In this document: positions 9,564-35,489 of the stretch, piece after piece
Layout: the number at the start of each line of letters is the position of its first letter
Position numbering within the stretch: position 1 is the first letter of the stretch
From: Sediminicoccus sp. KRV36
Lineage (GTDB): Bacteria > Pseudomonadota > Alphaproteobacteria > Acetobacterales > Acetobacteraceae
Reading direction: 5' to 3'
Length of the DNA stretch: 64,000 nucleotides
NCBI RefSeq assembly: GCF_023243115.1
Contig: NZ_CP085081.1
Coordinates: forward strand, 2,666,001-2,730,000
Notes under the pieces: generated by a model
What the model was told of the DNA's origin: nothing
The model's database searches: none
Seen by the model: the letters and a program-made list of their open reading frames with translations, nothing else
Program-made: the position numbers and the translations under genes

Positions 9564-9576
9564 GAGGAGGACGACC

Positions 9577-9813
9577 ATGGACCCAACCGTCCTCGCCTGG
9601 GCGCTGGCACAGCCGGCCGGCACCCGCGCCGCCGTCCTGGCCGCGGCCTTCACCGGCGGCACCACGCGCGTCACCTTCGATGGCCGCACCGTGGAGTACC
9701 GATCCCTGGACGAACTCGGCCGGGCTCTATCGGTCCTGCACGCCGCCGAGAACGCTGCCGCGCGCCGCTCCAACGTCACCTTCGCCAGCTTCTCGCGCGA
9801 GGGAACCAGGTGA
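9577..9813 (+). CDS. gpW-like head-tail joining protein
   Basis: A 78-residue protein between terminase and portal, the classic location of lambda gpW homologues. It begins MDPTVLAWALAQ and has the short beta segment TRVTFDGRTVEYRSLDEL typical of this family, which plugs the portal after packaging. A strong GAGAGGAGG ribosome binding site precedes the ATG, and its TGA overlaps the portal ATG (TGATG). Confidence 0.75.
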   Translation: MDPTVLAWALAQPAGTRAAVLAAAFTGGTTRVTFDGRTVEYRSLDELGRALSVLHAAENAAARRSNVTFASFSREGTR

Positions 9814-11303
9814 TGGGCCGGATCCGCGATGCCTGGCACGCCCTTCGTGGCTATGCCGCGGCGCAGGACAGCCGCGCCTCGAGCTGGGCGGCATCGGGAG
9901 GCAGTGCCACGGCAGAGGTCGGCGCGGCCGCACCCACCGTGGCGCGCCGGGCCCGCGACGCCGTGCGCAACGACCCCTACGCTGCCCGCATCGTCGATCT
10001 CTGGACCGGCAACGCTGTCGGTGCCGGCATCACCACCCGCTGGCCGGACAAGCCGCACGCCGAGGCCTGGCGCCGCTGGTCCGACAGCACGGCCTGCGAT
10101 GCCGAGGGCCGGCTCGACCTGTATGGCCTGCAGGCCCTGGTCATGCGCGCCGTCGTCGAGAGCGGGGAATGCTTCGTCCGCCTGCTGCCGGCCGACGTCA
10201 CGCCGGCCAATCCGATCGGACTGCGGCTCCAGGTGCTGGAGAGCGACCACCTCGACACGGCGCGGCAGGGAGTCCTTGAGGGCGTCCCCACCCTGCAGGG
10301 CATCGGCCTCGGCGAGGCGGGGGAGCCGGTCGGCTATTGGCTGCATCGCGTGCACCCCGGCGCGTCCTGGGTGCTGCCGGGCGGCGCCACCTGGTTGAGC
10401 AGCCAGCGCGTGCCGGCGCGCGACGTGCTGCACATCTATCGCAAGCGCCGGCCGGGCCAGCTGCGCGACGTCTCCTGGCTCGCCCCGGTGCTGACCCGGC
10501 TGCGCGATCTCGGCGACTACGAGGCCGCGCTGCTGATGAAGGCCAAGATCGAGGCCTGCCTGGCCGCGGTCGTCTCCGAGGATGGCGACGACGCCATGAC
10601 CGGCCCGGCGTCGGGCCTGCTCCGCGACGCGCAGGGCCGCACGGTGGAGAGCTTCGAACCCGGCATGATCCTGTATCGCCGCGGCATGGGCAGCGTGGAG
10701 GTAGTGAATCCCTCCGGTGGTGGATCGCACGCGGCCTTCGCACGGCGCGCGCTGGAAGCTTCCGCCGTCGGTGCCGGCCTGACCTACGACCAGGTCGCCG
10801 GCGATCTCACCCAGGCGAACTACTCCTCGCTGCGGGCCGGCAAGATCGAGTTTCGCCGGCTCTGCGAGCAGGTCCAGTACGGCATGCTGATCCCGATGCT
10901 GGTGCGGCCGATCGCGGATCGCTTCCACGCGCAGGGCGCGCTGCTCGGGCTGTGGGGTGCCGAGGTTCCGGACGGCCTGTCGCACGTCCCGCCCGCGCAC
11001 GAGATGATCGACCCGCTCAAGGACACCACGGCGCTGATCGCGCAGGTCCGCGCGGGCTTCGTGCCGCAGCCCGAGGCCGTCGGCGCCTTCGGCTACGACT
11101 TCCGCCAGGTGGTCGAGATGATCCGCGAGGCCAATGCCCTGCTCGACGAGGCTGGCCTATCGCTCGACAGCGATCCGCGCCGCGTCGCCAAATCCGGCGC
11201 CGCGCAGGACGCAGCCCAGCTCGCCGCCATCGAGATTGCCGCCACCGGTGCCGCCTCGCCCCGCGCCGAGCCGCCCACCACTTCCCCAGGAGCCACACCA
11301 TGA
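9813..11303 (+). CDS. Lambda-family phage portal protein
   Basis: The 497-residue product shows the lambda portal pattern: ARRARDAVRNDPYAARIVDLWTGNAVG near residue 45, LQVLESDHLDT near 140, VLHIYRKRRPGQLRDVSWLAPV near 205, and the central DQVAGDLTQANYSS motif near 330. Twelve copies would form the DNA-entry vertex. It is translationally coupled upstream (TGATG) and downstream (ATGA overlap at 11300). The Ala/Pro-rich C-terminus is variable in the family. A GTG immediately before the ATG is an equivalent start. Confidence 0.92.
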   Translation: MGRIRDAWHALRGYAAAQDSRASSWAASGGSATAEVGAAAPTVARRARDAVRNDPYAARIVDLWTGNAVGAGITTRWPDKPHAEAWRRWSDSTACDAEGRLDLYGLQALVMRAVVESGECFVRLLPADVTPANPIGLRLQVLESDHLDTARQGVLEGVPTLQGIGLGEAGEPVGYWLHRVHPGASWVLPGGATWLSSQRVPARDVLHIYRKRRPGQLRDVSWLAPVLTRLRDLGDYEAALLMKAKIEACLAAVVSEDGDDAMTGPASGLLRDAQGRTVESFEPGMILYRRGMGSVEVVNPSGGGSHAAFARRALEASAVGAGLTYDQVAGDLTQANYSSLRAGKIEFRRLCEQVQYGMLIPMLVRPIADRFHAQGALLGLWGAEVPDGLSHVPPAHEMIDPLKDTTALIAQVRAGFVPQPEAVGAFGYDFRQVVEMIREANALLDEAGLSLDSDPRRVAKSGAAQDAAQLAAIEIAATGAASPRAEPPTTSPGATP

Positions 11304-14913: not shown

Positions 14914-14941
14914 TCCCGGCTTTCTTCCCACAACCATGACG

Positions 14942-14979
14942 ACACGCGGGGCGCCCCATCGGGCGCCCTTCGTGTTTCT
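14942..14979 (+). terminator. Intrinsic terminator-like hairpin after the capsid gene
   Basis: ACACG plus GGCGCCC pair with GGGCGCC plus CGTGT around a CATC loop, followed by TTTCT. It lies 29 bases after the capsid stop and just before the decoration gene, where partial termination would keep capsid transcripts most abundant. Confidence 0.65.
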
Positions 14980-14996
14980 GAGGAGCTCCCATCCCC

Positions 14997-15344
14997 ATGC
15001 GCAACTACGTCCAGCCGGGCAACAGCCTGGCCATCGCCGTCCCCTATGCGGGCGGTATCCTCTCCGGCCAGGGCGTCCTGGTCGGTGCGCTGTTCGGCGT
15101 GGCCGCCGTCGATGGCGCGCAAAACGCCGTCATCGAGGCCGCCACCCAGGGCGTGTTCGACATCACGAAGGAACCGGCGCTCGCCATCACCGCCGGCGCC
15201 CGCGTCTTCTGGGACAACACCAACCGGCGCATCACCACCACCGCGGCCGGCAATTTCCAGGTCGGCATCGCCAGCCTGGCGGCGCTGGCCGCGGACACCA
15301 CGGTCCGGGTGTGGCTCAACCGCGTGCCGGCGATCGGCACGTGA
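14997..15344 (+). CDS. DUF2190 family capsid decoration/stabilisation protein
   Basis: The 115-residue protein begins MRNYVQPGNSLAIAVPY and contains the LVGALFGVAA and ITAGARVFWDNTNRRITTTA pattern characteristic of DUF2190, a small beta-rich protein usually coded next to the major capsid protein and thought to trim or stabilise the shell. AGGAG lies seven bases before the ATG. Its TGA overlaps a GTG that probably starts the next gene. Confidence 0.8.
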   Translation: MRNYVQPGNSLAIAVPYAGGILSGQGVLVGALFGVAAVDGAQNAVIEAATQGVFDITKEPALAITAGARVFWDNTNRRITTTAAGNFQVGIASLAALAADTTVRVWLNRVPAIGT

Positions 15345-15994
15345 GCCCGGGCCCCAAGGCGATGGATCCGAAGGCCACGCGGGGCTATCGCAACCGCAAT
15401 CCGGGCAACATCGAGCACGTCCCCGCCAACAAATGGCAGGGGCTGGCTGATCCAGCCTCGGACGGGCGCTTCTGCCGCTTCACCAGCCATGAATTCGGCA
15501 TTCGCGCGCTCGCAGCCCTGCTGGTCACCTACCAGGACCGGCACAAGCTGCGCACGCCACGCGCGATCATCGAGCGGTGGGCGCCCAAGGTGGAGAACGA
15601 CACCGCGGCCTATGTCGCCGTGGTGGCGCGGCGGATCGGGGTCGGGCCGGACGATGCGATCGACCTGCATCGGCACAATCACCTCCGCCCGCTGGTCGAG
15701 GCGATCATCCACCACGAATGCGCCGGGCTGAGCTATCCGGCCGGCGTCATCGATCGGGCGCTCACCCTGGCCGGGGTACCGCCCGCGCCGCCGGTGACGC
15801 TTCGCGAGGTCGCCGCCATCACCGGCACCGGGCGTGGTGCCGTGCTGGTGGGTGCAGCCGGCATTGCCACCGCGGTCGCGCAGGCGGCCCCGGCCATCCA
15901 GGCGCTCGGCACGCTGGCGCCGGCCGTCGCCATCGCGGTCATCGTCGCCGCGGTGGTGGGCGTGCTCGCCTGGCGACTGCGACGACCAGCATGA
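15341..15994 (+). CDS. P5-like structural/muralytic protein with C-terminal membrane segment
   Basis: From residue 10 to about 135 the 217-residue product matches the family annotated as 'structural protein P5': RGYRNRNPGNIE, then KWQGL, RFCRFTSHEFGIRAL, and YVAVVARRIGVGPDDAIDL. These resemble lysozyme-like domains and are probably peptidoglycan-degrading. The last 55 residues are Ala/Val-rich with one clear transmembrane helix ending AWRLRRPA, so the enzyme may be membrane-anchored or act as a combined endolysin/spanin-like protein. GTG 15341 (GTGA overlap with the previous stop) or ATG 15362 may be used. Its place among head genes, rather than at the operon end, is notable. Confidence 0.65.
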   Translation: MSPGPKAMDPKATRGYRNRNPGNIEHVPANKWQGLADPASDGRFCRFTSHEFGIRALAALLVTYQDRHKLRTPRAIIERWAPKVENDTAAYVAVVARRIGVGPDDAIDLHRHNHLRPLVEAIIHHECAGLSYPAGVIDRALTLAGVPPAPPVTLREVAAITGTGRGAVLVGAAGIATAVAQAAPAIQALGTLAPAVAIAVIVAAVVGVLAWRLRRPA

Positions 15995-16299
15995 ACGCCT
16001 TCGCCGCGGCCATGGATGCGTTGGCCGCGGATCCGAACATCGGTGCGGATGCACTCTACCGGGCCGGTGGCACGGGCGCGCCAGTTCCCCTGCGTGTGGT
16101 CAGCTCGGCACCGGACCGGCTCGGCGATGCCTTCGGCACCAGCGTGATCCAGGCCAGCGACGTGCTGACCGTCGCCATCGCCGTGCTGCCAACCGTGGAC
16201 GCCGACGACACCTTCACCCTCGGCGCCGACACCCTGATCGTCCAGCACGCCGAGCGTGATGCCGCCGGCATCGCCTGGCGCGTCTTCTGCCGCCGATAG
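15991..16299 (+). CDS. Head-tail joining (stopper/adaptor-like) protein
   Basis: A 102-residue protein starting by ATGA overlap. The beta-rich sequence (PLRVVSSAPDRLGDAFG, DVLTVAIAVLPTVDADDTFTLGADTL shortened to its core VDADDTFTLG) fits small head-tail connector proteins such as the lambda FII or Gifsy-2 family, coded between capsid and tail genes. It would bridge portal and tail. Assignment rests on size, order and pattern. Confidence 0.6.
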   Translation: MNAFAAAMDALAADPNIGADALYRAGGTGAPVPLRVVSSAPDRLGDAFGTSVIQASDVLTVAIAVLPTVDADDTFTLGADTLIVQHAERDAAGIAWRVFCRR

Positions 16300-16309
16300 G
16301 AGCACCGCC

Positions 16310-16609
16310 ATGATCGATCCGGAGCGCATCGGCAGCATCATCGGCGAGGCGCTGCTCGCCGGCGCGCTCGGTGCGCTCGGCGCCGTCGCGCGGCTGACGT
16401 CGACCGGCCGGCCGATGCTGAGCGGGGCCTTCCTGCTGCATACGCTGGCCGGCGGCAGCCTCGGCACGGGCGCCTGGCTGGTGGCCCGGGCGCTGGAACT
16501 GGACGGCTGGTGGCTGTTCGCTGTCGCCTGGATGGCCGGCACGCTGGGCTATGCCGCGCTGCACGACCTCCTGCTGCGCGTCATAAATCGCCGGCTGGGC
16601 GGGCCGTAA
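16310..16609 (+). CDS. Holin-like small membrane protein
   Basis: The 99-residue product has three predicted hydrophobic helices (about residues 10-30, 38-62 and 66-90) and a short positively charged C-terminus (RVINRRLGGP), the layout of class I/LydA-like holins. AGGAG precedes the ATG. It lies three genes after the P5-like muralytic protein, which supports a lysis role, though a virion membrane function cannot be excluded. Confidence 0.6.
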   Translation: MIDPERIGSIIGEALLAGALGALGAVARLTSTGRPMLSGAFLLHTLAGGSLGTGAWLVARALELDGWWLFAVAWMAGTLGYAALHDLLLRVINRRLGGP

Positions 16610-16612
16610 CCC

Positions 16613-17338
16613 ATGCGGCTCGGCGCCAATATCGTCGGCGACCTCCGGAAGATGCTTGCCGACGAGGTGCGCGCCGGCGAGCGCGCGGCCATGACCGCCA
16701 TCCGCGCCGAGACCGAGCAGGTAAAGGCCGAGCTGCGCCGGCAGGTTACGACGGCCTTCTCCGGCAACGCGCGCGGCATCGCCAATGCCTGGCGGTCGAT
16801 GATCTTCCCGCGCTCCGGGCAGTCGCTGCGGCCGGCGGGGCTGGTCTTCACCAAGGTGCCGAACGTCATCGACGCCTTCGAACGGGGCGCCCTGATCCGC
16901 GCCAAGGGTGGCGGGAAGTTCCTGGCCATCCCGACCGGCTTCAATGCGGCGCGGGGACGCCGGGGGCGCGGCGAGAAGGGCATGCGCGTGACGCCGGCCC
17001 AGATGGTCGCTTCCGGCCAAGCCTTCCTGCGGCCGTTCAAGTCAGGCCGTGGCTTCGTGTGGTGCCTGCCGCTGCGCCAGGGCGAGCAGACCGGGCGGCG
17101 GCGCAGGACTCGTCTGGTCGCGGGCGGTGTCACCGAGGTCGGCACGGCCAACCGCAAGGGGCGTGAGGCCTGGGCGCGGGGTCTGCTGGAACAAGGAATG
17201 GTGCCGATGTTCCTGCTGCTCCCCCAGGTGAAGCTCGCCAAGCGGCTCGACGTGCGCGGCGCCGCCGAGCGCGGGCTGCGACGGCTTCCGGCACGGTTCG
17301 TGACGGCCTGGGAACGCGAGAGCGGGAGAACGGCATGA
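16613..17338 (+). CDS. DUF6441 family phage protein (putative tail completion/neck)
   Basis: The 241-residue basic protein has an N-terminal helical segment (RLGANIVGDLRKMLADEVRAGER shortened to its core DLRKMLADEV) and a middle FPRSGQSLRPAGLVFTK and FLAIPT region that fit DUF6441, a family found between head-tail joining proteins and the tail terminator in alphaproteobacterial siphoviruses. By position it resembles gpZ-like tail completion proteins. Its TGA overlaps the start of a 42-codon membrane protein gene. Confidence 0.6.
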   Translation: MRLGANIVGDLRKMLADEVRAGERAAMTAIRAETEQVKAELRRQVTTAFSGNARGIANAWRSMIFPRSGQSLRPAGLVFTKVPNVIDAFERGALIRAKGGGKFLAIPTGFNAARGRRGRGEKGMRVTPAQMVASGQAFLRPFKSGRGFVWCLPLRQGEQTGRRRRTRLVAGGVTEVGTANRKGREAWARGLLEQGMVPMFLLLPQVKLAKRLDVRGAAERGLRRLPARFVTAWERESGRTA

Positions 17339-17463
17339 CCATGCGCGCGCGCTTCCTCCTGCTGCTGGTGCTGGTTGTGCTGTCCTGGGCTGCCGTCCCC
17401 ATCGGCCTCGCGCTCACCTGGGTCGCCGGCCGTTTCTTCGCATCGATGCTGGGGTGGGCATGA
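17335..17463 (+). CDS. 42-residue membrane protein
   Basis: This short frame is bounded on both sides by ATGA overlaps: its ATG overlaps the TGA of the DUF6441 gene, and its TGA overlaps the ATG of the tail terminator-like gene. The product starts MTMRARFLLLLVLVVLSW and has one or two hydrophobic helices. The tight coupling is strong evidence that it is translated. It could be a spanin-like or other lysis accessory, or a tail-assembly membrane factor. Confidence 0.65.
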   Translation: MTMRARFLLLLVLVVLSWAAVPIGLALTWVAGRFFASMLGWA

Positions 17464-17906
17464 GCACGCGCGAGACCGCGATCGACGCGCTGCACAGCCG
17501 GCTGGTCACGTTGCTGGCGGTGCGGAACCCGGCACCGCTGGTGCTCCGCGGCGAGACCATCCCGCAGCGCATCCCGGCCGGTGGCTTGGTCTTGGTCCGC
17601 GATGGCGAGACGGTGGAGGAGACGCCCATCCTCTCCCCACTCGCCTGGCAGATCGAGCATCGCGCCGAGGTCGAGATCACCGTCGCCGGCGCAACACCCG
17701 CCGCGCGCAACACTCTGCTCGACGCGCTGCTGGTCGATGTCGCCGCGGCGATCACCGCCAACCGCACCCTCGGCGGCGCTGTGGAATGGGCGCAGCCCGG
17801 CAGCGCCGCCTTCGAGGATGTCGAGTTCGAGGGTGCTGCCGCAGCCCGCGCCGCCGCCATCTCCGTCACCCTCTGGTTCACCGTCGCCGGCTCGCCGCTG
17901 GCCTGA
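17460..17906 (+). CDS. Tail terminator-like protein
   Basis: A 148-residue protein with an N-terminal helix (ETAIDALHSRLVTLLA) and a sheet region EHRAEVEITVAGA followed by a helical DALLVDVAAAI segment, the alpha/beta layout of gpU-type tail terminators. It sits directly before the tail tube gene, the usual position. It would cap the tail tube at the correct length. Starts by ATGA overlap. Confidence 0.6.
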   Translation: MSTRETAIDALHSRLVTLLAVRNPAPLVLRGETIPQRIPAGGLVLVRDGETVEETPILSPLAWQIEHRAEVEITVAGATPAARNTLLDALLVDVAAAITANRTLGGAVEWAQPGSAAFEDVEFEGAAAARAAAISVTLWFTVAGSPLA

Positions 17907-17927
17907 TCCCTCTTCAGGAGAACGCCC

Positions 17928-18881
17928 ATGCCCCGTGCCATCGGTGCGAACTGCCGCCTGCTCATGGTGCCCGAAACCGTCTACGGCACCGCGCCTGGTA
18001 GTAACTGGCGGCGCATGCCGTTCCTGTCCTGCGACCTCGGCGCCGAGCAGCCACTGCTGGATGCCGACGTCATCGGCGTGGGCAGCAACCGGGACCCCGC
18101 CGCGCCCTTTCTCGACACGGTGACGGTCGCCGGCCAGGCGGTGGTGCCGGTCGACCTGATCAACATCGGGCACTGGCTGCGGCTTCTGCTCGGCGCGCCG
18201 ACCACCACCGGCTCCACCAACTTCATCCACACCTTCGGCTCGGGTGCGGCCTCGCTGCCCAGCAACGCGATGGAGATCGGCTATCCCGATGTGCCGTCCT
18301 TCGACGTCTGCACCGGGGTGCGCGCCGACACGCTGGAGATGGACTTCACGCCGACCGGCGCGGCGACGGCCACGTTCGGCCTGCTGGGCCAGGGCTCGGC
18401 GCGCACCGGCGCGACGTCAGGCGGCACGCCGACCAGCGCGGCCTACACCGCCTTCAACAAGGCCCAAGGATCCATCACGCGGAGCGCAGCGGCGCTGGCG
18501 CAGGTTACCGGCGCGCGGCTCACCTACGCCAACGGGATGGAGGCGGTGCGCACCATCCGCGCCGATCGCCGCGTCGAGGGCGTGGACCCCGGCATCGCGC
18601 GCTGCACCGGCCAGATCACCGTGCGCTTCGAGAACACCACGCTGCTCGCCCAGGCGCAGGCCGGCACCTCGGCGGAGTTCGCCATGGCCTTCACCATCGA
18701 CTCCAACCGCAGCCTGACCATCACGCTGCACGAGGTCTATCTGGCGCTGGCCAAAACGCCGATCGAGGGGCCGGCCGGCGTGGAAGCCAGCTTTGACTTC
18801 AGGGCCGCGTTCAACGCGACCGCAACGCGCATGATGACCGCAGTGCTGCGGAACCAGCAGGCGGGGACGGAGTATGCGTGA
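17928..18881 (+). CDS. Phage tail tube protein
   Basis: The 317-residue protein starts MPRAIGANCRLLMVPETVYGT, with an early VPETVYGTAPG motif typical of tail tube proteins of this type, then a beta-rich middle and a C-terminal immunoglobulin-like region. AGGAGAA precedes the ATG. It follows the terminator-like gene, and its natural downstream partner, the tail assembly chaperone, is displaced to 23439 by an antisense two-gene insertion. Confidence 0.8.
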   Translation: MPRAIGANCRLLMVPETVYGTAPGSNWRRMPFLSCDLGAEQPLLDADVIGVGSNRDPAAPFLDTVTVAGQAVVPVDLINIGHWLRLLLGAPTTTGSTNFIHTFGSGAASLPSNAMEIGYPDVPSFDVCTGVRADTLEMDFTPTGAATATFGLLGQGSARTGATSGGTPTSAAYTAFNKAQGSITRSAAALAQVTGARLTYANGMEAVRTIRADRRVEGVDPGIARCTGQITVRFENTTLLAQAQAGTSAEFAMAFTIDSNRSLTITLHEVYLALAKTPIEGPAGVEASFDFRAAFNATATRMMTAVLRNQQAGTEYA

Positions 18882-18891
18882 GACACACACT

Positions 18892-18910
18892 CGGCCGGCT
18901 TGGCTGGCCG
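18892..18910. terminator. GC-rich hairpin between tail tube and antisense cassette
   Basis: CGGCCGGC, loop TTG, GCTGGCCG forms an 8-bp stem with one G-T pair in the 69-base gap between the converging tail tube gene and the PLD-like gene. No T-run is present, so it could act in either direction but weakly. Confidence 0.35.
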
Positions 18911-18950
18911 CGCGGGAAGCGGCCCTTATGCCTTCGGCCGCACCGGTGGC

Positions 18951-21569
18951 TTAGGAGACTCTTGCCTCGGTGTCGCGCCGCGGGAGTGAAGAAGTGTCGA
19001 GCACGGTGGCCGACGCCACGAGCACTCTCTTTTCCGCCCCCTGCATACCCGCAGGCTCAGTCAGAGACATCTTGGTGCCGCTGACCGAAGCGACCACCCA
19101 GGGTAGGTCGCGCTCACCCGCCCAGAGAACGATATCGCCTACAACGGGATTCCGCGCAGATACCGCTCGGGGCTGACCCCGCAAGCGTTGCAGCAGCGAG
19201 CCATAGGCCAACTGACGGTCAGTCCAGTCGTCGGTGGGAGACACGGCGTCGTCCCAGAGCCCCAACCAAGGGTCTCGCTGGACCGCCCAAGCTTCGAGGG
19301 TCTTATAGGCCGCGGCCGACATGGCTACCGGTCCCAGGTCGGCACGCGCTTGAAGGTATCCGGCATCGACCAGCTCGCGCGACTGGCGCGAACAATCGGC
19401 ACCGATTTCCCGGGCGAACCATAGCAGGAGATTGTCGATCAGACGCCGCTCTTCTGCGGCCCGCGTGCCGGGCGTTGATTCTAGTTTAAGCGCGACCTTG
19501 CTGGGTCCATAGAGCGCATGAACGGCGAGGCTGAAGGCGACGCGGAGCTGGCTTGTGCTCACAAGGCTGGCAGGCCGCACACGCCCATTGAGGGCGTCGC
19601 GAGTTTGCGGTGGATGCCCCCTCAGCCGATGGAGTAGCGAAAGAACGACCACCAGACGGCCGAGCGCCCAGCTCGGCGGATGGCCTGCAGCCGTCGCCTC
19701 GTCTAGACGGGCTTCCAACCGCTTGAGCATGACGGTCAGGCGCTTGCGACAAGCCGTGACCAGCCGCGGCCAGTCGATTGCCGGCACGTCTACGCCGGCA
19801 TCAAGGTTGCGGGCGAGGTCATCGGAGGACGGCCCATCGGCCGCATCGCCCTCGTCCAAGTCAGGAGCGTCACCATCCGTTGTCGGCGCAGGCGGCGGTG
19901 CGCCAAGCGCCCGGATGAGAGCGGCAATAATGTCGGCGATCAGTCCATCACTCAGCCGGGGCCGCCGGAGTCCAAGCTCGGCCTCGGCGGGCAAGCTCAC
20001 CCCGCGGGGTCCGAAGGGGACCTCGCTATTCTCCACGCTCTCGGTTTGGGCCGCCGTGCTGGGTGCGTGGCTCGCCCCGATCGCGCCATCCGCCGGAGCC
20101 AGAACGTGCTTATTGAGCAAATCCAACAGGTCGGTGAAGCCTGCGCCGCTCTCCAGAGACCCTAGGTGGTCCAAGATCCGCACACCGTCGCGCGGCAGAG
20201 CGGCGGCTCTCAGGGCCTGGGCATCGTTCAGAAGAACGAAGGCGATCGTCGTGTGACCCGAATGAAATTCATAGAGTCCGCAACCAACGCGATGGTCGCC
20301 GAACGCGACAAGACTTCCCCCCTCTATCGCCTTGAGGGTGCAAGCCCTGCTGACACCGCTCGCTTCGACCCAGGCGAACGGCCCTTCATCGGAAGCCTCG
20401 AAATCCTTCAGGAAGAATCCACCGGCGACTACCTGAGCCGAGATAAGCGGCGGTCCCGATGCCTCGGCCGTCGCCTGCTCTTGGCTCCGCACCGCCTGGC
20501 TTCGGTCGGCGATCTCGACCAGTTGCGACGCCGCAAGCGCTGGCGCCTCAGTGAGTCGGTCGAGGCCGAGCGCCGCGAACGCCGCAGCCGCGGCTTTGCC
20601 GGTCAGACAGAGATTGGCTTCTGCGTTCCAACGTTTCTGCGCGAGCCATGCTGCGCCCGTAGGATTGGCACTGCCCAAGCTCACTACCAGGCCGCCTTCG
20701 CCCTCGACGGCCAAAGCCTTTCCATGAGCGAAGCCGACCTCATCGGCTTTCGACCAGAAGGCCTGGAGGTCTGAGGCATCAACGAAACGCGCGGTCTTCG
20801 GCGCGAGGTCAGGTCGCGGCAGTACGGCGCTCGCGGGTTGGATAGCGATGATGATTTCACGCGGCGCCATCTCGCGTTCGACTGCCTTCAAGAAATCCAT
20901 TCGCGCGTCGAAGTACGGTCCAACAACCGTCACGCGGCGGACAGGGCCGACAACACTCGATTTTAGCTGGGTCCATAGGGGTTCCTCCGCGGACGAGACC
21001 ATTAGGCCTGCCTCGTCGTTCGCGGCCGCAGGCGCCGGCGGCAACAGACCGCGGAGCCGGCCCGTGATCTCCGCCAGCACACCGGCGGGGATCGAGTCAG
21101 CGGCCTCCAGCCACTGCAGCGCATAGTCGACTGCGGCCCTCAAAACTCCCGGCGGGGCAGGGTTCGCGGCACCCCAGAAGGCCGTAACTTCCTCGTTGTG
21201 CGAGAACCCGGCGTCCGTGACATTGTGGCTGCCAAGCGCCAGAATCGGCTGGCGCTCCGACAACAACGTGACGAGCTTTGGGTGGAAGGCTCCAACATGA
21301 GAGATGGGCGCCAGGAGGTAGTCGAGCCCGGCGCGGCTCGGACGCCGAAGCGGGTCAGAAAGGCTTTCTGTAAGTTGCCCGGCGTCGGCCAGGACAATAT
21401 TGAGGCGAGAGCCCGCGCGCTCAAACGCCCGCAAGAGCACTTCTTCGTAGAAGAGGCCGTTGAAGGCGTAGGTGGTGACAATCGAGGCGTCCAGCTTCGC
21501 CCCGGACTTGGCAAGATCCTTGAGGGTCTTGAGCAGCGGCAAACGTGACGTACGATCCTCCCCGCTCAT
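18951..21569 (-). CDS. PLD-superfamily protein, second gene of antisense cassette
   Basis: The 872-residue product has two half-sites of the phospholipase D/HKD superfamily. The first is H96-x-K98 with G113-S114-x-N116-x-T118 and E126/E127; the second is H282-x-K284 with G299-S300-x-N302-x-T304 and E317. The Asp of the full HxKxxxxD motif is missing, as in PLD-type nucleases such as the BfiI group, so nuclease activity is more likely than lipid cleavage. Residues about 340-872 are unrecognised; a long acidic stretch (GDAPDLDEGDAADG) lies near 590. It is coupled (ATGA) to the gene at 21566-23176 and is less GC-rich than the flanking tail genes, suggesting acquisition. Probably a prophage-borne defence or superinfection-exclusion effector; function is inferred. 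Confidence 0.75.
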   Translation of the reverse strand: MSGEDRTSRLPLLKTLKDLAKSGAKLDASIVTTYAFNGLFYEEVLLRAFERAGSRLNIVLADAGQLTESLSDPLRRPSRAGLDYLLAPISHVGAFHPKLVTLLSERQPILALGSHNVTDAGFSHNEEVTAFWGAANPAPPGVLRAAVDYALQWLEAADSIPAGVLAEITGRLRGLLPPAPAAANDEAGLMVSSAEEPLWTQLKSSVVGPVRRVTVVGPYFDARMDFLKAVEREMAPREIIIAIQPASAVLPRPDLAPKTARFVDASDLQAFWSKADEVGFAHGKALAVEGEGGLVVSLGSANPTGAAWLAQKRWNAEANLCLTGKAAAAAFAALGLDRLTEAPALAASQLVEIADRSQAVRSQEQATAEASGPPLISAQVVAGGFFLKDFEASDEGPFAWVEASGVSRACTLKAIEGGSLVAFGDHRVGCGLYEFHSGHTTIAFVLLNDAQALRAAALPRDGVRILDHLGSLESGAGFTDLLDLLNKHVLAPADGAIGASHAPSTAAQTESVENSEVPFGPRGVSLPAEAELGLRRPRLSDGLIADIIAALIRALGAPPPAPTTDGDAPDLDEGDAADGPSSDDLARNLDAGVDVPAIDWPRLVTACRKRLTVMLKRLEARLDEATAAGHPPSWALGRLVVVLSLLHRLRGHPPQTRDALNGRVRPASLVSTSQLRVAFSLAVHALYGPSKVALKLESTPGTRAAEERRLIDNLLLWFAREIGADCSRQSRELVDAGYLQARADLGPVAMSAAAYKTLEAWAVQRDPWLGLWDDAVSPTDDWTDRQLAYGSLLQRLRGQPRAVSARNPVVGDIVLWAGERDLPWVVASVSGTKMSLTEPAGMQGAEKRVLVASATVLDTSSLPRRDTEARVS

Positions 21570-23176
21570 CCAACCAGTTCCTGTAACGCCTGGTCGCCAA
21601 GCGCCGTCGGATGCGGCAAATGCTCAGTTTCGTGTGTGGTCAGGCCTAGGTCGCGAAGGATCTGGAAGGCCTGCCGAAGGCGCGGCTGGGTTTCAACGAT
21701 CCGCTCAAGGTCGCGGTGAACGAAGAATCCGAGGTCGCCAGAGCGGAACATCAAGGTGTCCTCGCCCGACTGTCCCATCTTGCGGATCGCGATCCGTTGA
21801 TGGGTGACGAGCACATCACTGACAAGGACCCTGAACCAGCCGTCAGCGGCCAGCCCGGCCCAGCGGGTTGTCGCCATGGCTCGTAGACTGTTTAGCGTCA
21901 GCGGGTACCCGGACAGCGTGCCCGGCGGGAGATTCAGTTCTCGATAGGCATCAGAAGGCTCGTCAAGCCAGCGGCGATAGAGACGCACCAACAGGCGGGC
22001 GGCTTCGCCGGGCGACGGCGGATTGGCCGCGAGCAATGCCCGCCACATGGCCAGTTCGTGCTCCGGATGGGCGATGGCGTCGAGCGCCGGCGCATTGGCA
22101 AAATCCGCTGCGACCAGGTCATTGAAGGTTGCGGCCGGACGGTCTTGGAAAGCCGGTGTCGTGACCAGCCATGCTGCCAACGCGTCGATGTTGGCGAACG
22201 GTTTGGGGTGGCCGTCGAGCGCGTCGAGGGCATTCTTGAAGAGGGCCGACCAAGCCAAACTCAGCATCTCGTTGCGCGCATAGAGCGCCCAGCCGCGGCG
22301 CGCTTGGAGCAAGCGCTCAGGCGTCGCCCACGGGCCCTCCGGCAAGGCCTCGGTGTAGCAACTGGCGAGGAAATCTTTGATTGGGTCGTCCGTCGGTGCC
22401 CCGTTCCGCTGCTTCAGGTAGTCGAGCACGAGTGCTAACGATGACGCCCGCGCGACGCCGTGCGGCGAACGATCTCGGAGGAACAGCGAGATCAACGCGG
22501 TTTGTGCCGGCTTGCGTGCTGCAAACTGAAGACTGCAGGGACAGAAGATCGCCAGATCGTCGAGGTCGCCCAGCGTCACGGCGCCAGCTTCGAGTGCAGC
22601 GAAGAACAAGTCGCCGTCGAGACCAGCGCCGTAGGCGTCGGCCAAGGGCGCCCCCCGCTCGAGCCAGTAGCCGATGCCTTTGCGCGGATCGCCGTGGAGC
22701 ACCGTGTACTCGTCACGCAATACCCCAAGATAATACTGGCCGAGACCCCCTAGCGGATTTTTGAAATACCGAGTGGGATTGCTTTCGCTGCGGTCGGCAT
22801 AGCGCCCTAGTTCGACTGTCTGGCCGGGCTGAAGGTCGCGGGCGACCGGGCCCAGTGTAAGGCGCCCGGGACAGGTCGCGCTGTGACGGGCGATGTCTTC
22901 ACCGCACGCTATGGCGTGGCGTTCGGCCACGAGAGTCATCAGGCAATCTGCCAGCCTTAACGTCTCACGAAACTGGGTCTCGGACGCTTCGGGGTGACGT
23001 GCCTCGAAAGCCCGAATGAACCAGGGATAGAACCCGAAATAGGCGGCCCGATCAGTGACGTTCGTGATCCCAGGTAGAAGCCGCGTGTAGATCGTTACAC
23101 AGGGCTGCTGCGCCCCGAGATTATCGAGGCCAATCTTTTTGAGAGGCCGTTCGAGCCAACCGATCGTTTCCTGCAT
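21566..23176 (-). CDS. Unrecognised 536-residue partner of the PLD-like gene
   Basis: First gene of the leftward cassette. The protein begins MQETIGWLERPLKKIGLDNLG, with a PGITNVTDRAAYFGFYPWFIRAFE segment (core GITNVTDRA) near residue 35 that looks like a conserved family signature. Most of the rest is helical; no catalytic motif or membrane segment is visible. A cysteine-bearing FCPCSLQFAARKP stretch lies near 220. I cannot assign a function. Its stop overlaps the PLD gene start by ATGA, so the two are almost certainly produced together. It could be a sensor, adaptor or inhibitor of the nuclease-like protein. Confidence 0.75.
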   Translation of the reverse strand: MQETIGWLERPLKKIGLDNLGAQQPCVTIYTRLLPGITNVTDRAAYFGFYPWFIRAFEARHPEASETQFRETLRLADCLMTLVAERHAIACGEDIARHSATCPGRLTLGPVARDLQPGQTVELGRYADRSESNPTRYFKNPLGGLGQYYLGVLRDEYTVLHGDPRKGIGYWLERGAPLADAYGAGLDGDLFFAALEAGAVTLGDLDDLAIFCPCSLQFAARKPAQTALISLFLRDRSPHGVARASSLALVLDYLKQRNGAPTDDPIKDFLASCYTEALPEGPWATPERLLQARRGWALYARNEMLSLAWSALFKNALDALDGHPKPFANIDALAAWLVTTPAFQDRPAATFNDLVAADFANAPALDAIAHPEHELAMWRALLAANPPSPGEAARLLVRLYRRWLDEPSDAYRELNLPPGTLSGYPLTLNSLRAMATTRWAGLAADGWFRVLVSDVLVTHQRIAIRKMGQSGEDTLMFRSGDLGFFVHRDLERIVETQPRLRQAFQILRDLGLTTHETEHLPHPTALGDQALQELVG

Positions 23177-23438
23177 TGTGCGCCCCCCAACCCATTGCTG
23201 TTCCGGCCCTTCCCCATGAAGAAGACAAGCGCGCTGATTCTACCGTAAGCCTGATCAAACTCGAACCCGTGCCGACGACCGCCTTGGGTCGAGTACGGCT
23301 GTAGCGTTCAACGCCAAGTCTGCCATCTCGACGCGCCGCCTCATCGCGCGAGCCTCGCTGGTGAGGCTGGCCGCTATCCTGAGCGCCGCGCAGGGCTCTT
23401 CTGATCCGGATTGCCCGCCTACCTGAACGGAGAACCCC
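23177..23438. promoter_or_regulatory. Divergent intergenic region between antisense cassette and tail chaperone
   Basis: This 262-base gap must hold the cassette promoter on the - strand. A possible -10 (TAGAAT, reverse complement of 23237-23242) with a poor -35 (TTCGAG) 17 bases upstream is the best candidate. On the + strand only the ribosome binding site GGAGAA before 23439 stands out. I see no gene here. Confidence 0.35.
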
Positions 23439-23816
23439 ATGCTCACCCTCGACCTCCCGGTCGAGCCGTACTGGCTCGACCTCCCGCGCGGCGTCCGCGT
23501 GGAGATCCGCCCCGTCACCACCGCTGTGATGGCCGCCGCCCAGGCCGGCTCCGCCCGCCGCCTCGGCGTGCTGCGCGCAGCCGAGGCCGACCTCGACCCC
23601 GACATGGCGCGCGGCCTGGCCTTCGCCTTCCTGGTCAAGGCGCTCGCGCGGCATGCCGTCACCGCCTGGGATGGCGTGGGCGACGCCGCCGGCAAGCCGC
23701 TGCCGCTCTCGCCCGAGGCGGTCGAGCGGCTGATGGACATGGACGAGATGGCCGCCGCCTTCTGGGACCGCGCCACCGGCCCCGTCGCCGCCGTGACGCT
23801 GGAGGGAAACGGCTGA
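23439..23816 (+). CDS. Tail assembly chaperone (gpG-like)
   Basis: The 125-residue protein begins MLTLDLPVEPYWLDLPRG, with the mixed alpha/beta N-terminus and helical C-terminus (VERLMDMDEMAAAFWDRA) typical of tail assembly chaperones coded just before the tape measure gene. It would bind the tape measure protein before tube polymerisation. The 3' end carries a canonical slippery heptamer (23804-23810) two codons before the stop, allowing an extended G-T product to 24133. Confidence 0.78.
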   Translation: MLTLDLPVEPYWLDLPRGVRVEIRPVTTAVMAAAQAGSARRLGVLRAAEADLDPDMARGLAFAFLVKALARHAVTAWDGVGDAAGKPLPLSPEAVERLMDMDEMAAAFWDRATGPVAAVTLEGNG

Positions 23817-24133
23817 GGGCCCGGGCCGAATGGCACTTCGGCCAGGGCCCTGACTACTGCCGCGGCTGCGCGGCCCTCGATCGCGACTGCGGCCTGGCCT
23901 GTCCCTACGCCGCCCACGCGCCCGCCAGCGTCGAGGGCGCCGCAGCCTGGGCCGCCGGCACCACCTGCGCCACAGCGACGATGACCGGTCTCGACTTCGA
24001 CATGCCGGCCGCGCTCGCCACCTCCCGCGAGATGGGCGCCTCCGGCTGGGCCGCAGCGGAACTGCTGCTGGCCATGCGCATGGGCCTCGCCGCCGGCAGC
24101 GCCGCGCGCCGCACCGACCCCCCTGGGCCCTGA
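23439..24133 (+). CDS. Tail assembly chaperone -1 frameshift product (gpGT-like, 231 residues)
   Basis: Ribosomes that slip back one base at 23804-23810 leave the G frame and read CGG CTG AGG onward to a TGA at 24131-24133, giving 124 G residues plus 107 T residues. The T part (GQGPDYCRGC, DCGLACPYAAHAP) has four cysteines in a possible metal-binding cluster. The T frame has no good start codon before 23981, so a frameshift is the natural way to make it. It ends 29 bases before the tape measure ATG, matching lambda G/GT order. Expression as a fusion is inferred from this architecture. Confidence 0.75.
23804..23810 (+). promoter_or_regulatory. -1 programmed frameshift slippery site
   Basis: The heptamer G GGA AAC, read in frame as GAG GGA AAC GGC TGA, fits the X XXY YYZ rule and differs from the lambda G/GT site (GGGAAAG) only at the last base. 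The T frame is in the -1 register and opens directly after it. Confidence 0.8.
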
Positions 24134-24162
24134 CCACTCCACTGACGCAGGAGGCGTGACGC

Positions 24163-26319
24163 ATGGCGGATAGCACACGCCGCGTCTCGGTCCGCCTGTC
24201 GCTGGATGACGCTGCCCGGGTCAAGCAGGAGCTGCGCGAGGTCGGCGAGACCGGCCAGCGCAGCCTGGAGCGCATCCAGGGCGGCGCCGATCGTGCCTCC
24301 CGCGCGCTGGACCTGCTCGATGTCGCCGTACGTGGCGTGCAGATCGCCGGCCTCGCCGCCGGCCTGCGCGCCGTGGTCGTCGCCGGCGATGCGCTCACCC
24401 AGTCCATGGGCAGGCTGAACACCGCGCTCGGCTCCGTCGAACGCGCCGGTGAGATCTACGACCGGCTGTATCGCGACAGCCTGCAGACCGGCGTCGCCGT
24501 CCGCGAGAGCGTCGACGCCTTCGCCCGCTTCTCGATCGCCGCCCGCGAGATCGGCGCCACCTCCGACCAGGTCGCCACGCTCGTCGGCGGCCTGCAGCGC
24601 ATCGCCATTGCGTCGGGTGCCTCGCAGCAGGAGATCGCCTCCTCAACCCAGCAGCTCGCCCAGGCGCTGGCGTCGGGCACGCTGCAGGGCGACGAACTGC
24701 GGAGCATCCTCGAAGGCCTGCCCACCCTGGCGCAGGCGCTGGCCCGCGAGCTCGGCGTCTCCATCGGCGAGCTCCGCAAGCTCGGCTCCGAGGGCAAGCT
24801 CACCGCCGACACGGTGTTCCCAGCGCTGCTGCGCGCCGTCGAACGGCTGAATGGCGAGTTCGAGCGGGCGCCGCTTTCCGTCGGCCGCGCCTTCGGCCAG
24901 CTCACCGCCGCCGCCGACCAGTTCCTCGCCCGTCTCGACCAGGCTATCGGTCTCTCCAACGCCCTGGCCCGCGCCCTGTCCGGCGCCGCCCGTGTGCTGG
25001 ACGGGGTGCGCCGCGGCTCGGGCCTGCTGCTGCCTTCCGAACAGGAGGCCGACCGCCGTGCCCAGGCTGAGGCCCTGCGTGCCCAGATCGCCCGCCTCGA
25101 GGCGGAGAATGACGGCCGCGACAGCCTGCGCTCCCAGCCGCGCCGCGGTTCGATCCAGGGCGGCTTGGTCGGCACCGCGCAGCAGCAGGCGGGCGTCGAT
25201 CGCGCCGCGCGGTTGGAGGAGCTGCGCCGGCAGTATGCCGAGCTTCAGGAGGAGATCACCCGCGGCGAGCAGGCCGCCGGCGAGCGCCAGCGCACCGAGC
25301 AGGAGGCCGCCGCCGGCCAGGCCGCCGAGGCCCGTCGTCGCCGCACCGCTGCGGACGCCGAGGAACTGCGCAAGGCGCTGGACGATCGCTTTCGGATCAA
25401 CAGCGAATACGACGACCGCGTCCGTCGCCTGCGCGAGGCCGAGGCCGCGGGCGGCATCACCGCCGCCGACCGCACCCGCCTCGAGACCCTGGCGCTGCGC
25501 GAGCGCGACGAGGCGCTGCGCCGCATCGAGGGCACCACCCGCCGCGTGGCCGCCATCCCGCGCCCGGACCGCGAGGCCGAGCGCGAGATCAACGACATCA
25601 TCCGCGAGCGCGAGCGGCTGATCCAGAACAACGAGAACGCCCAGGAGCGCTACACCCGCCGCCTGGAAACCCTCGGCCGGCTGGTGGAACGCGCCGAGCG
25701 CATCGGCCAGCCCATCCCCGACGAGACCGTCTCCCGCGAGGCCAATGCTGCGCTGGAGGAGCTGGAGCGCAGCCAGCAGCGCGTCCAGCAGGCGACAGAG
25801 CGCACCAGCAACACGGCGCGCGAACTCGGCCTGACCTTCTCCTCGGCCTTCGAGGACGCGATCATCAAGGGCGAGAGTTTCTCGAAGGTGCTGCAGGGCA
25901 TCCTGCAGGACATCGCCCGCATCGTCGTCCGCCGCACCATCACCGAGCCGCTGGGCACGGCGGTGACCTCCAGCCTGGCGGGCTTTGACTTCGGCTCGAT
26001 CTTTTCTGGCATCGGCTCGGCGCTGGGCGGGCTTTTCCGCGCCGAGGGCGGGCCGGTGGCGGGCGGCCAGCCCTACATCGTGGGTGAGCGCGGCCCCGAA
26101 TGGTTCGTGCCAAACCGCAGCGGCACGGTGTTGCCCAACGGCATGGCGCCCGGTGGGCCGGTGATCAACCAGAGCATCACCATCGACGCTCGCGGCGCCG
26201 ATGCGGGTGTCGAGGCGCGGTTGCGCGTGCTCTCGGCGCAGATCGTCCGCCAGGCCAGTGCGGCGACGCTCGACGCCATCCGCCGCGGCGGCAGCGCCAC
26301 CTCCATCGTGCGGGGATAG
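24163..26319 (+). CDS. Phage tail tape measure protein
   Basis: The 718-residue protein has the tape measure domain at about residues 65-260 (LDLLDVAVRGVQIAGLAAGLR, then the FARFSIAAREIGATSDQ and SQQEIASSTQQLAQALASG core), long Glu/Arg-rich coiled-coil segments (about 300-540), and the C-terminal signature AEGGPVAGGQPYIVGERGPEWF. It sets tail length and reaches the host membrane at ejection. At 718 residues it predicts a tail near 100 nm by the usual 0.15 nm per residue rule. It follows the G/GT frame as expected. Confidence 0.92.
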   Translation: MADSTRRVSVRLSLDDAARVKQELREVGETGQRSLERIQGGADRASRALDLLDVAVRGVQIAGLAAGLRAVVVAGDALTQSMGRLNTALGSVERAGEIYDRLYRDSLQTGVAVRESVDAFARFSIAAREIGATSDQVATLVGGLQRIAIASGASQQEIASSTQQLAQALASGTLQGDELRSILEGLPTLAQALARELGVSIGELRKLGSEGKLTADTVFPALLRAVERLNGEFERAPLSVGRAFGQLTAAADQFLARLDQAIGLSNALARALSGAARVLDGVRRGSGLLLPSEQEADRRAQAEALRAQIARLEAENDGRDSLRSQPRRGSIQGGLVGTAQQQAGVDRAARLEELRRQYAELQEEITRGEQAAGERQRTEQEAAAGQAAEARRRRTAADAEELRKALDDRFRINSEYDDRVRRLREAEAAGGITAADRTRLETLALRERDEALRRIEGTTRRVAAIPRPDREAEREINDIIRERERLIQNNENAQERYTRRLETLGRLVERAERIGQPIPDETVSREANAALEELERSQQRVQQATERTSNTARELGLTFSSAFEDAIIKGESFSKVLQGILQDIARIVVRRTITEPLGTAVTSSLAGFDFGSIFSGIGSALGGLFRAEGGPVAGGQPYIVGERGPEWFVPNRSGTVLPNGMAPGGPVINQSITIDARGADAGVEARLRVLSAQIVRQASAATLDAIRRGGSATSIVRG

Positions 26320-32046: not shown

Positions 32047-32952
32047 CTAAGCTGCCATGGTGTCGATCTCCGCAATGCGGCGAAACTCCGTGAGGAACTC
32101 CGGTCGCTGCTGCGTCAGAAACCGAACAATGCGTGGATTTTCGAGCAGGCGTGCGAGATACCCGCGCGCGACAACCAGCATCAGATGGTCTGCCCCATAG
32201 GCCGAATGAGCCAGCTTGACCTCGCGGTCGAGTTGGGCCGACTCGCGCTCCATCAGAATTTTCTGGTCTTCAGTCAGCCCCTTGGTGGCCTTCGGCTTGG
32301 CCTCGGAAATAATCTGCGTCTGCGGTGTGGCCGCCAACAATGCCCGCGCATACCCGTCAGTGTAGCGGTTCATCGTCACCATCAATTCCGCCACCTCGAT
32401 TTGCCGCAATGGCCGCATGTTCCGCAGCACGCCGAACACCTTCGCGTTGACAGGCTTGTCCTTCAGAAATTCCACTGCTTCCGGGCAGATGCCGACCAGC
32501 ATGCGCTTCTTGATCTGGAGCGTGTTGACGTCGATGTTGAGGGACCGCGCGATGCGGGATTCCGGGACCTTCTTCTCGACCAGCTTCAGAATCATCCGGT
32601 GCTCCTGGATGGCCGCCAGTCGACTGATCCGCTTGTTGTATGTGAAGGCCTCATCATCTGTGGCCAGCAGGCAGGAGATGCTGTCGCGGCCCTGGCTACG
32701 CAAAATGTCGATGCGTAGGTGACCGTCGAGCAGCAGATAGCGACCAGGCATGGCCGGATGATGCGCCACCACCGGCGGCTCGATGAGACCGACCTCGCTG
32801 ATCGATGCTGCGATCTGTGCGTATTTGGTGGACTGCTTGATCTTCGGCGTGACCTCACGCAGCGCGTCGATGTCACTGAAGCGCAGCGAAATCACCGTTC
32901 GATGGAAGGCCGAAGCCACTGCCATGACCGGCTTTGCAGGTTCGGGCTTCAT
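32047..32952 (-). CDS. ParB-domain protein with RepB-type C-terminal region
   Basis: The 301-residue product has a ParB-like N-terminal domain (about 15-110: ITVISLRFSDIDALREV-like opening, then LIEPPVVAHHP and YLLLDGHLRIDILRSQG) and a C-terminal region of the RepB plasmid-partition family (about 130-280: IPESRIARSLNIDVNTLQIKKRML core SRIARSLNIDVNTL as a helix-turn-helix). It is the last gene of a leftward triad with a second ParB-like protein and a serine recombinase, all joined by ATGA overlaps. The role may be in partition, regulation or guiding the recombinase; no ParA is present, so classical plasmid partition is unlikely. Confidence 0.8.
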   Translation of the reverse strand: MKPEPAKPVMAVASAFHRTVISLRFSDIDALREVTPKIKQSTKYAQIAASISEVGLIEPPVVAHHPAMPGRYLLLDGHLRIDILRSQGRDSISCLLATDDEAFTYNKRISRLAAIQEHRMILKLVEKKVPESRIARSLNIDVNTLQIKKRMLVGICPEAVEFLKDKPVNAKVFGVLRNMRPLRQIEVAELMVTMNRYTDGYARALLAATPQTQIISEAKPKATKGLTEDQKILMERESAQLDREVKLAHSAYGADHLMLVVARGYLARLLENPRIVRFLTQQRPEFLTEFRRIAEIDTMAA

Positions 32953-33827
32953 CTGTTTGCTTCGCCACGGATTCGCTCGTCCATGCCGCGCGGCAAGGTG
33001 TGCAATGCCTCTGCGCGCGCCAGGTTCACGAAGCCCTCGTCAGCGAACAGCTCGCGCAATGCCTCGGTGATGAAGAGCAATCTGCTGCGGGCGGCTTCAG
33101 CACGTCGCACCAGCACGCGCTTCTTGTCGACATCCTGCTGGTAGGTGCGCAGCAGGGCGTCCACGGACATCGGGCGCGCCGACGTGCGATCACGCGTTTT
33201 CGCCTTTTTGCCACGACGCTGGCGGTTCTCAACCAGCCGCTTCGCGGCCAGCAGGCTGTGCCCGCGCAGAAGCTTGCGCTCATAGGCCTCCTGCAGCACG
33301 CGTTGCGTGTCAGCCTCCTCGGCTTCTGCGATGTCAACAGCAACACTGACCGGAATTTGTCCAATCTCAACCGCTTTGAGGAGCCGCGTCTCACCCTTGT
33401 TGATCAGCCGCAGCACACCGCGGGCATATTCCAGGCTCAGACCTGTCTTGCGGGCGATATCGACATCCGAGTGGCCCCGCTGCTCCATGCCGCCGATATC
33501 ATGAAAAAGCTCCAGCGACTGATGCTGGCGGCGCGCGATATTTTCGACCAACCCCATGACGAGGCAGTCCTCACTTTCAGCCTCGATGATCACCGCCGGG
33601 ATTGAAGATTGGCCCAGCTCCCGGAAGGCCTCGAGCCGGCCCTGGCCGCACACCAGGTCATACCGCTCCCCGCGGCGCGCCACCGTGATCGGCCGCTTGA
33701 GGCCGACCTTGGCAATGCTATCCATCATCTCTTGGAAGACGCGCCTGTTCCGGGCCCTGGGATTGACCACATCGATCAAGTCGATCGGGATGGAAACGAT
33801 CGCCATAGTGGTGTCTGGCGCGCTCAT
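32949..33827 (-). CDS. ParB/RepB-like partition-type protein
   Basis: The 292-residue product shows a fuller ParB signature: IPIDLIDVVNPRARN, GLKRPITVARRG, YDLVCGQGRLEAFRELG and VMGLVENIARRQ (box II-like GLVENIAR), followed by a helix-turn-helix (DVDIARKTGLSLEYARGVLRL core VDIARKTGLSLEYARG). The C-terminal 100 residues are helical and basic. It is middle gene of the triad and coupled on both sides. ParB proteins are CTP-dependent clamps; whether this one retains the activity is unknown. Confidence 0.82.
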   Translation of the reverse strand: MSAPDTTMAIVSIPIDLIDVVNPRARNRRVFQEMMDSIAKVGLKRPITVARRGERYDLVCGQGRLEAFRELGQSSIPAVIIEAESEDCLVMGLVENIARRQHQSLELFHDIGGMEQRGHSDVDIARKTGLSLEYARGVLRLINKGETRLLKAVEIGQIPVSVAVDIAEAEEADTQRVLQEAYERKLLRGHSLLAAKRLVENRQRRGKKAKTRDRTSARPMSVDALLRTYQQDVDKKRVLVRRAEAARSRLLFITEALRELFADEGFVNLARAEALHTLPRGMDERIRGEANR

Positions 33828-35392: not shown

Positions 35393-35489
35393 ATCAGATC
35401 CTCTCAAGCTCAGGCCTTGCCGCGCCGTGGCAACGTCACGCGCTGCCGCGGTCGTGCCACCGCGTCAGCATCGGCGAGCGCGTTTGACT

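Follow-up and report, generated by a model that had tools for sequence, protein, structure and literature searches.

The question raised by this locus was what two leftward genes, lodged in the middle of the rightward tail operon of a prophage, might do there. The stretch analysed, hereafter the window, comprises 64,000 nt of Sediminicoccus sp. KRV36 (NZ_CP085081.1, 2,666,001-2,730,000). The plus-strand genes around the cassette, coding for a terminase, a portal, a fused head protein/protease, a tail terminator, a tape measure and a J-like tail fibre, constitute a prophage late region. Antisense to the tail genes run gene A (21566..23176, minus strand), the first gene of the operon, encoding a protein of 536 aa, and gene B (18951..21569, minus strand), encoding a predicted PLD-type phosphodiesterase of 872 aa. 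Both have ATG starts and they overlap by four bases; the coordinates, sizes and ATGA overlap were exactly as given in the preliminary description. The whole insert (18883..23428) extends from the stop codon of the left flanking gene to the RBS and start of the tail assembly chaperone. The location claimed for the cassette, between tail tube and tail chaperone, was correct, and so was the name of the right flanking gene (23439..23816, plus strand; 'Tail assembly chaperone' in PHROGs, phrog_313, E 1.2e-12), whereas the left one (17928..18881, plus strand) is a 'minor tail protein' in PHROGs (phrog_290, E 2.9e-50), for which a tail tube function is plausible and probable.

The lower GC content ascribed to the two genes was also borne out. 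GC3 amounted to 0.72 for B and 0.73 for A vs 0.89-0.96 in the plus-strand tail genes (16613-18881 and 23439-26319), and the GC content of 1-kb windows to 64-66% (19001-23000) vs 69-74% (16001-19000 and 23001-25000). The cassette's own promoter is expected in the right part of the insert, upstream of gene A (23177..23428); a consensus scan of the minus strand between 18700 and 23600, which high-GC promoters may escape, gave no sigma-70-like match. The tight operon with A in the first position and the translational overlap would suit an abortive infection or toxin-antitoxin-like device, in which B would be a host-toxic nuclease, held inactive by A until infection and then killing the cell. We consider such a device unlikely.

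Protein B scored 38.7 bits against Pfam PLDc_2, above the cut-off of 27. Its PLD part covers approximately residues 2-365 and is followed by a C-terminal region of about 500 residues. In an alignment of 79 rows, both half-sites, H96/K98/N116/E127 and H282/K284/N302/E317, were invariant except for K98 (78 K, 1 R), and the HKD-type Asp position carried no conserved Asp, position 103 being L, V or A and position 289 mostly E. The alignment thus confirmed the claim of two PLD-type half-sites lacking the Asp of the full motif. Half-sites of the HxK...N...E kind are those of the Tdp1-type HKN enzymes, and the PLD superfamily acts through a covalent histidine intermediate. The modelled fold of B is bilobal and holds the two HxK...N...E half-sites, which places B in the PLD superfamily and supports its description as a PLD-type enzyme.

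Tdp1 and PLD3/PLD4 were among the best structural matches of the model. They favour a reading in which B clears protein-bound or modified DNA ends in the manner of Tdp1/PLD3 and so aids replication or integration of mobile elements, with no part in defence; we give little credence to this end-processing or repair function. The PLD fold also includes lipid enzymes, which lends something to another view, that the cassette is a passenger without effect on phages, either because its insertion is neutral or because its enzyme has lipids or some other phosphodiester as substrate. We find it improbable, and the intact reading frames of both genes and the retention of all catalytic residues of B argue against it.

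Protein A is helical and bears the N-terminal signature GLDxLG...LLPGITNVTDRxxYYxFYPW. The statement that the 536-residue protein has no recognised domain held for Pfam (DUF6361 included), NCBIfam and PHROGs, where no match reached the accepted score, and failed for PADLOC, in which A gave a weak match to ZacA (E 0.01, 43 residues). B matched part of the PADLOC ZacB model (E 5.4e-13). Profile comparison with hhalign related B to ZacB with a probability of 97.5 (E 7e-12, 283 columns) and A to ZacA with a probability of 86.6 (E 4.5e-6, 51 columns), vs probabilities of 0.15 and 0.25 in the crossed controls. The gene-A profile also found ZacA proteins (E 7e-7 in L119, 0.05 in L120). The ZacA and DUF6361 models match the same genes in two genomes (G154 and G187), so ZacA falls in DUF6361, and A would be a distant relative of DUF6361/ZacA. 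Gene order, A then B, is common to both systems, and A appears to share the N-terminal motif of ZacA. By these profile matches, the nearest named relative of the pair appears to be the PADLOC pair ZacA-ZacB (DUF6361 plus PLD). The system is therefore, contrary to what had been proposed, not undescribed in kind, but distant kin of ZacA/ZacB.

It also differs from Zac. ZacA has about 390 aa and ZacB about 620 aa, vs 536 for A and 872 for B, and the third Zac gene, coding for the ZacC helicase, is absent here, the flanks being tail genes. B is a ZacB homologue by these comparisons, and no ZacC homologue was found at the cassette; identity with Zac was consequently rejected. The profile comparisons point to a distantly branching form of the Zac core, with longer proteins and without a helicase gene. 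DUF6361-PLD-helicase sets were found on plasmids of Bradyrhizobium, Mesorhizobium and the archaeon Halomarina, and DUF6361-PLD on a Rhizobium etli plasmid, with the third gene not listed. On an Agrobacterium Ti plasmid (L125, 8157-10013), two hypothetical ORFs occupy the ZacB position between the DUF6361 and helicase genes, and they are possibly a split ZacB. A search of PMC, a scope outside which bioRxiv and most subscription journals lie, returned no paper on DUF6361, none in which ZacB occurs together with phage or defence, and none that brings up Zac, PADLOC and DISARM jointly.

The position of the cassette was then compared with that in related prophages. Among the 60 genomes searched, 14 (the window's own included) matched the tape-measure protein at E <= 1e-20. 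Of the 20 regions fetched, 17 contain the slot from edge to edge; the remaining three, L099, L110 and L113, stop short of the left edge. The slot flanks were homologous to those of the window in all 17 informative regions. The A-B cassette was absent from the slot in every one of the 17, which speaks against a role in end-processing. Another insert, of 663-5449 bp, was present in 16 of the 17 (L094-L098, L100-L105, L107-L109, L111 and L112), and none of these had a blastn match >150 bp to the window's insert. In L106 the slot is empty, and the left gene's stop codon overlaps the chaperone's start as TGATG. On the left, the inserts start at the left gene's stop codon or within a few bases of it; on the right, they end at or just before the RBS and start of the chaperone. 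The largest ORF of the insert is antisense in six cases (L094, L095, L097, L098, L107 and L108) and sense in four (L096, L101, L102 and L103); in the other six inserts the ORFs are short and occupy either a single strand or both. Some inserts are alike, L111 and L112 having the first ORF in common. Several other proteins encoded by the inserts are hypothetical.

The Pfam and PADLOC scans of slot cargo covered ten proteins, which came from nine of the 16 inserts. Five gave PADLOC matches: PDC-M32A and PDC-M32B (L094), a caspase (L098), RmrA (L103) and TmtA (L108, E 0). The remaining five had no PADLOC match, and three of them were DUF3800, DUF4238 and amidohydrolase proteins by Pfam. The amidohydrolase (L096) is not defence-like, a point in favour of the passenger view, whereas the RmrA homologue, together with small genes in the relatives' slot that look antitoxin-like by eye, counts for abortive infection. 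The RmrA gene of L103 is accompanied by a gene that appears PIN-like by eye. A variable insert between conserved phage genes, different or absent in relatives, marks this site as a precise prophage cargo slot, often but not always occupied by defence-type genes; the interpretation of the two genes as foreign antisense cargo of a prophage tail operon is thereby supported. The tape-measure protein had several matches per genome (four in G574 and five in G568, also G567 and G573), which indicates that the prophage family is common in the genus. Other positions of the window also vary in length among the relatives (about 9563-9577, 14916-14995, 15331-15990 and 24112-24162), for example in L105 and L107 near 9570 and in L102 and L110-L112 near 24130, and these may be further cargo slots.

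To what extent A and B occur together elsewhere was read from genome contigs of 84,980 species, scanned by two short peptide patterns. The resulting 61 gene-A loci, a biased sample by virtue of the patterns, came from eight phyla: Pseudomonadota, Acidobacteriota, Myxococcota, Thermodesulfobacteriota, Gemmatimonadota, Nitrospirota, Elusimicrobiota and Bacteroidota. With genes called in the fetched loci as longest ORFs in a greedy manner, B lay directly downstream of A in 54 of the 61, its start falling between -416 and +95 bases from the end of A. Among the seven loci without the pair, L059, L061 and L068 are cut off by the end of the contig, A could not be recognised in L066, and in L053, L056 and L065 A is truncated and B is absent though sequence is present. 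Over 51 pairs in which both proteins are long, pairwise distances of A and B co-varied (rho 0.91; 0/999 permutations as high), a point that also counts for the toxin-antitoxin-like view. The proteins diverge down to about 20% identity and are still paired, which is hard to reconcile with a mere passenger. The A-B pair is a unit, in line with its presentation as one system, and often a neighbour of restriction systems, as set out below. The outcome that would have refuted the preliminary description, homologues never occurring side by side in other genomes, was thus not observed.

Protein searches retrieved at least 53 homologues of B and at least 184 of A. Six plasmid records match A, and in four of the five that were opened (Undibacterium, Sphingobium, Roseovarius and Polaromonas) A is followed by B, the Aminobacter plasmid having a fragment of A only. 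B is matched by 14 plasmid records, five of which also match A and nine of which match part of B only. The several plasmid copies would fit an enzyme assisting mobile elements. Profile search found the family in 4 of the 385 genomes searched from the class, and single-sequence search in 2 of 200 from the phylum, the window's own genome included in both. No homologue of A or B was detected by tblastn in 50,697 phage records, which argues against end-processing, and scans of IMG/VR, weak since they were pattern-based, confirmed no viral contig. All placeable homologues were located in bacterial genome contigs and plasmids. A phage-specific gene couple was rejected on these grounds, and the view of the cassette as a typical phage gene pair had to be abandoned.

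Restriction-modification (RM) genes near the pair were grouped by BLAST and one representative of each cluster was identified by HMM (Pfam, PADLOC), so that the following counts are approximate, and short contigs among the 61 loci can hide such genes: type I RM genes occurred in the fetched stretch of 17 loci (HsdM in 12), DISARM/ARMADA-like genes (DrmMI-cluster methylase, SNF2 helicase or MZB helicase) in nine, and neither in 35, which gives a restriction-type neighbourhood in 26 of 61. From the 236 HsdM_N matches in the 200 genomes of the phylum sample (hand sum), and with a mean genome of about 3.7 Mb assumed, the expectation for the 61 loci (1.05 Mb in all) is approximately 0.3 HsdM, vs 12 observed, the two sets differing in taxonomy. 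In L020, L021, L047, L054 and L060 the pair and hsd genes seem to form one operon, the order being HsdM-HsdS-DUF4357-PIN-A-B-HsdR in L021, HsdR-HsdM-HsdS-A-B in L054 and A-B-HsdM-HsdS-x-HsdR in L060; in L024, L028, L030 and L045 the apparent operon includes a single hsd gene. L046, likewise operon-like, has the order MZB helicase-SNF2-DrmMI-A-B, with a gene that looks Fic-like by eye preceding A. In the Pseudomonas-type loci L016, L020 and L021 (about 8000-9953), a DUF4357 protein and a PIN7-domain protein precede the pair, the DUF4357 protein of L021 being PADLOC PDC-S14.

In a phylogeny of 57 A proteins, in which the long branches L060, L005 and L063 are unsure, the RM label needed at least 11 changes, vs a shuffled mean of 15.5 (4/500 shuffles as low). 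The label is therefore somewhat clustered, yet has been gained or lost many times. Joining RM loci in several branches is more typical of DNA-targeting defence than of abortive infection, and A, large, conserved and helical, is unlike a small labile antitoxin. That 17 of the 61 loci contain restriction systems likewise weighs against end-processing. The branch that the window's copy shares with Mesorhizobium L009 has no RM gene adjoining the pair. Some 35 kb from the cassette, left of the window (L129, 120-3394; G000:C1, ~2646619-2649893), the host has an HsdS and an HsdM gene; the HsdM shares 45% identity with the one encoded in the same operon as A-B in L020. A gene adjoining the host's HsdS and HsdM genes (L129, 4853-6202), a serine recombinase by eye, probably marks the left end of the prophage.

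The cassette was also set against other known systems. Identity with type I RM was rejected, hsdM, hsdS and hsdR being missing beside the cassette; the pair shares hsd operons elsewhere, but the window's copy has no adjoining hsd genes. DISARM links a PLD protein, DrmC, to a methylase and an SNF2 helicase, and DrmD-like and DrmMI-like neighbours occur in some A-B loci. B differs from DrmC in that a single long chain holds two half-sites. No Drm genes lie next to the cassette in the window, where the flanks are tail genes, and DISARM was rejected, with DrmA, DrmB, DrmC and the methylase missing beside the cassette and the PADLOC DrmC model matching B at E 0.021 only. ARMADA Type I has the order MZB helicase, SNF2 helicase, DrmMI-cluster methylase, according to a preprint (PMC12458937). 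The same genes in that order stand upstream of the pair in L046 and L034, their membership of ARMADA being judged by gene order alone; the accessible text makes no mention of the A-B pair, which also occurs without ARMADA genes. Tab, an 83-residue tail-assembly blocker, is a prophage moron located between terminase genes (PMC10884400). Like the cassette, it is an accessory gene in a prophage late operon, but the cassette comprises two genes for an enzyme system and sits in a different slot. The pair is not described in the available parts of PMC12839542, PMC10884400 and PMC12458937.

Altogether, the best reading of the cassette is probably an accessory restriction-type antiviral nuclease module, with predicted activity, target and partner. 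With some reserve, we favour the prediction that the two genes make up a nuclease module directed against invaders, which the prophage carries as cargo. With both half-sites in one chain, a single molecule of B could form a complete active site, and B would most likely cut or trim invader DNA via a covalent histidine intermediate. A would most likely recognise the target, or restrain B and deliver it. The pair occurs in operons with a DNA translocase and a methylase in many bacteria, which suggests that it may act as an added nuclease on DNA marked or moved by type I HsdMSR or by an SNF2 helicase with a DrmMI-like methylase. A translocase (HsdR, SNF2 or ZacC) could feed DNA to B; such a translocase would be dispensable, none being present in the stretch fetched for 35 of the 61 loci. 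In the window's prophage, the pair is solitary, runs antisense to the late operon and would protect the lysogen from other phages. Superinfection exclusion in the sense of an entry block, the other function suggested for the cassette, found no support in the data, and a restriction-type nuclease fits better. On the whole, the preliminary description was accurate in what it observed and, for the greater part, in how it read the cassette.

A wider hypothesis can be put forward only tentatively. The pair may be a plug-in module, consisting of a recogniser A and a two-site PLD nuclease B, that has been added repeatedly to unrelated DNA-translocating defence machines. Just as tentatively, its scope might extend over type I RM, ARMADA/DISARM-like systems, Zac with its own helicase and the solitary copy in the prophage, as one multi-phylum family not described as such. 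If this is true, the PADLOC Zac genes would be linked to a larger helicase-less family, one nuclease module would have come together repeatedly with restriction systems of various kinds, and a prophage would be carrying a defence cassette of the sort found on chromosomes and plasmids. More defence genes of the genus could be sought in the slot bordered by the phrog_290 and tail chaperone genes.

Two other features of the window were recorded. The protein encoded at 3905-5227 matches both ParB-like and DNA methyltransferase phage families, with phrog_498 the best. At 32047-35407, a recombinase gene (phrog_95) lies beside two ParB-like genes; their resemblance to a set on the Sphingobium plasmid (L005, 24368-27709), in which a recombinase accompanies two RepB C-terminal proteins, suggests a similar small mobile unit.
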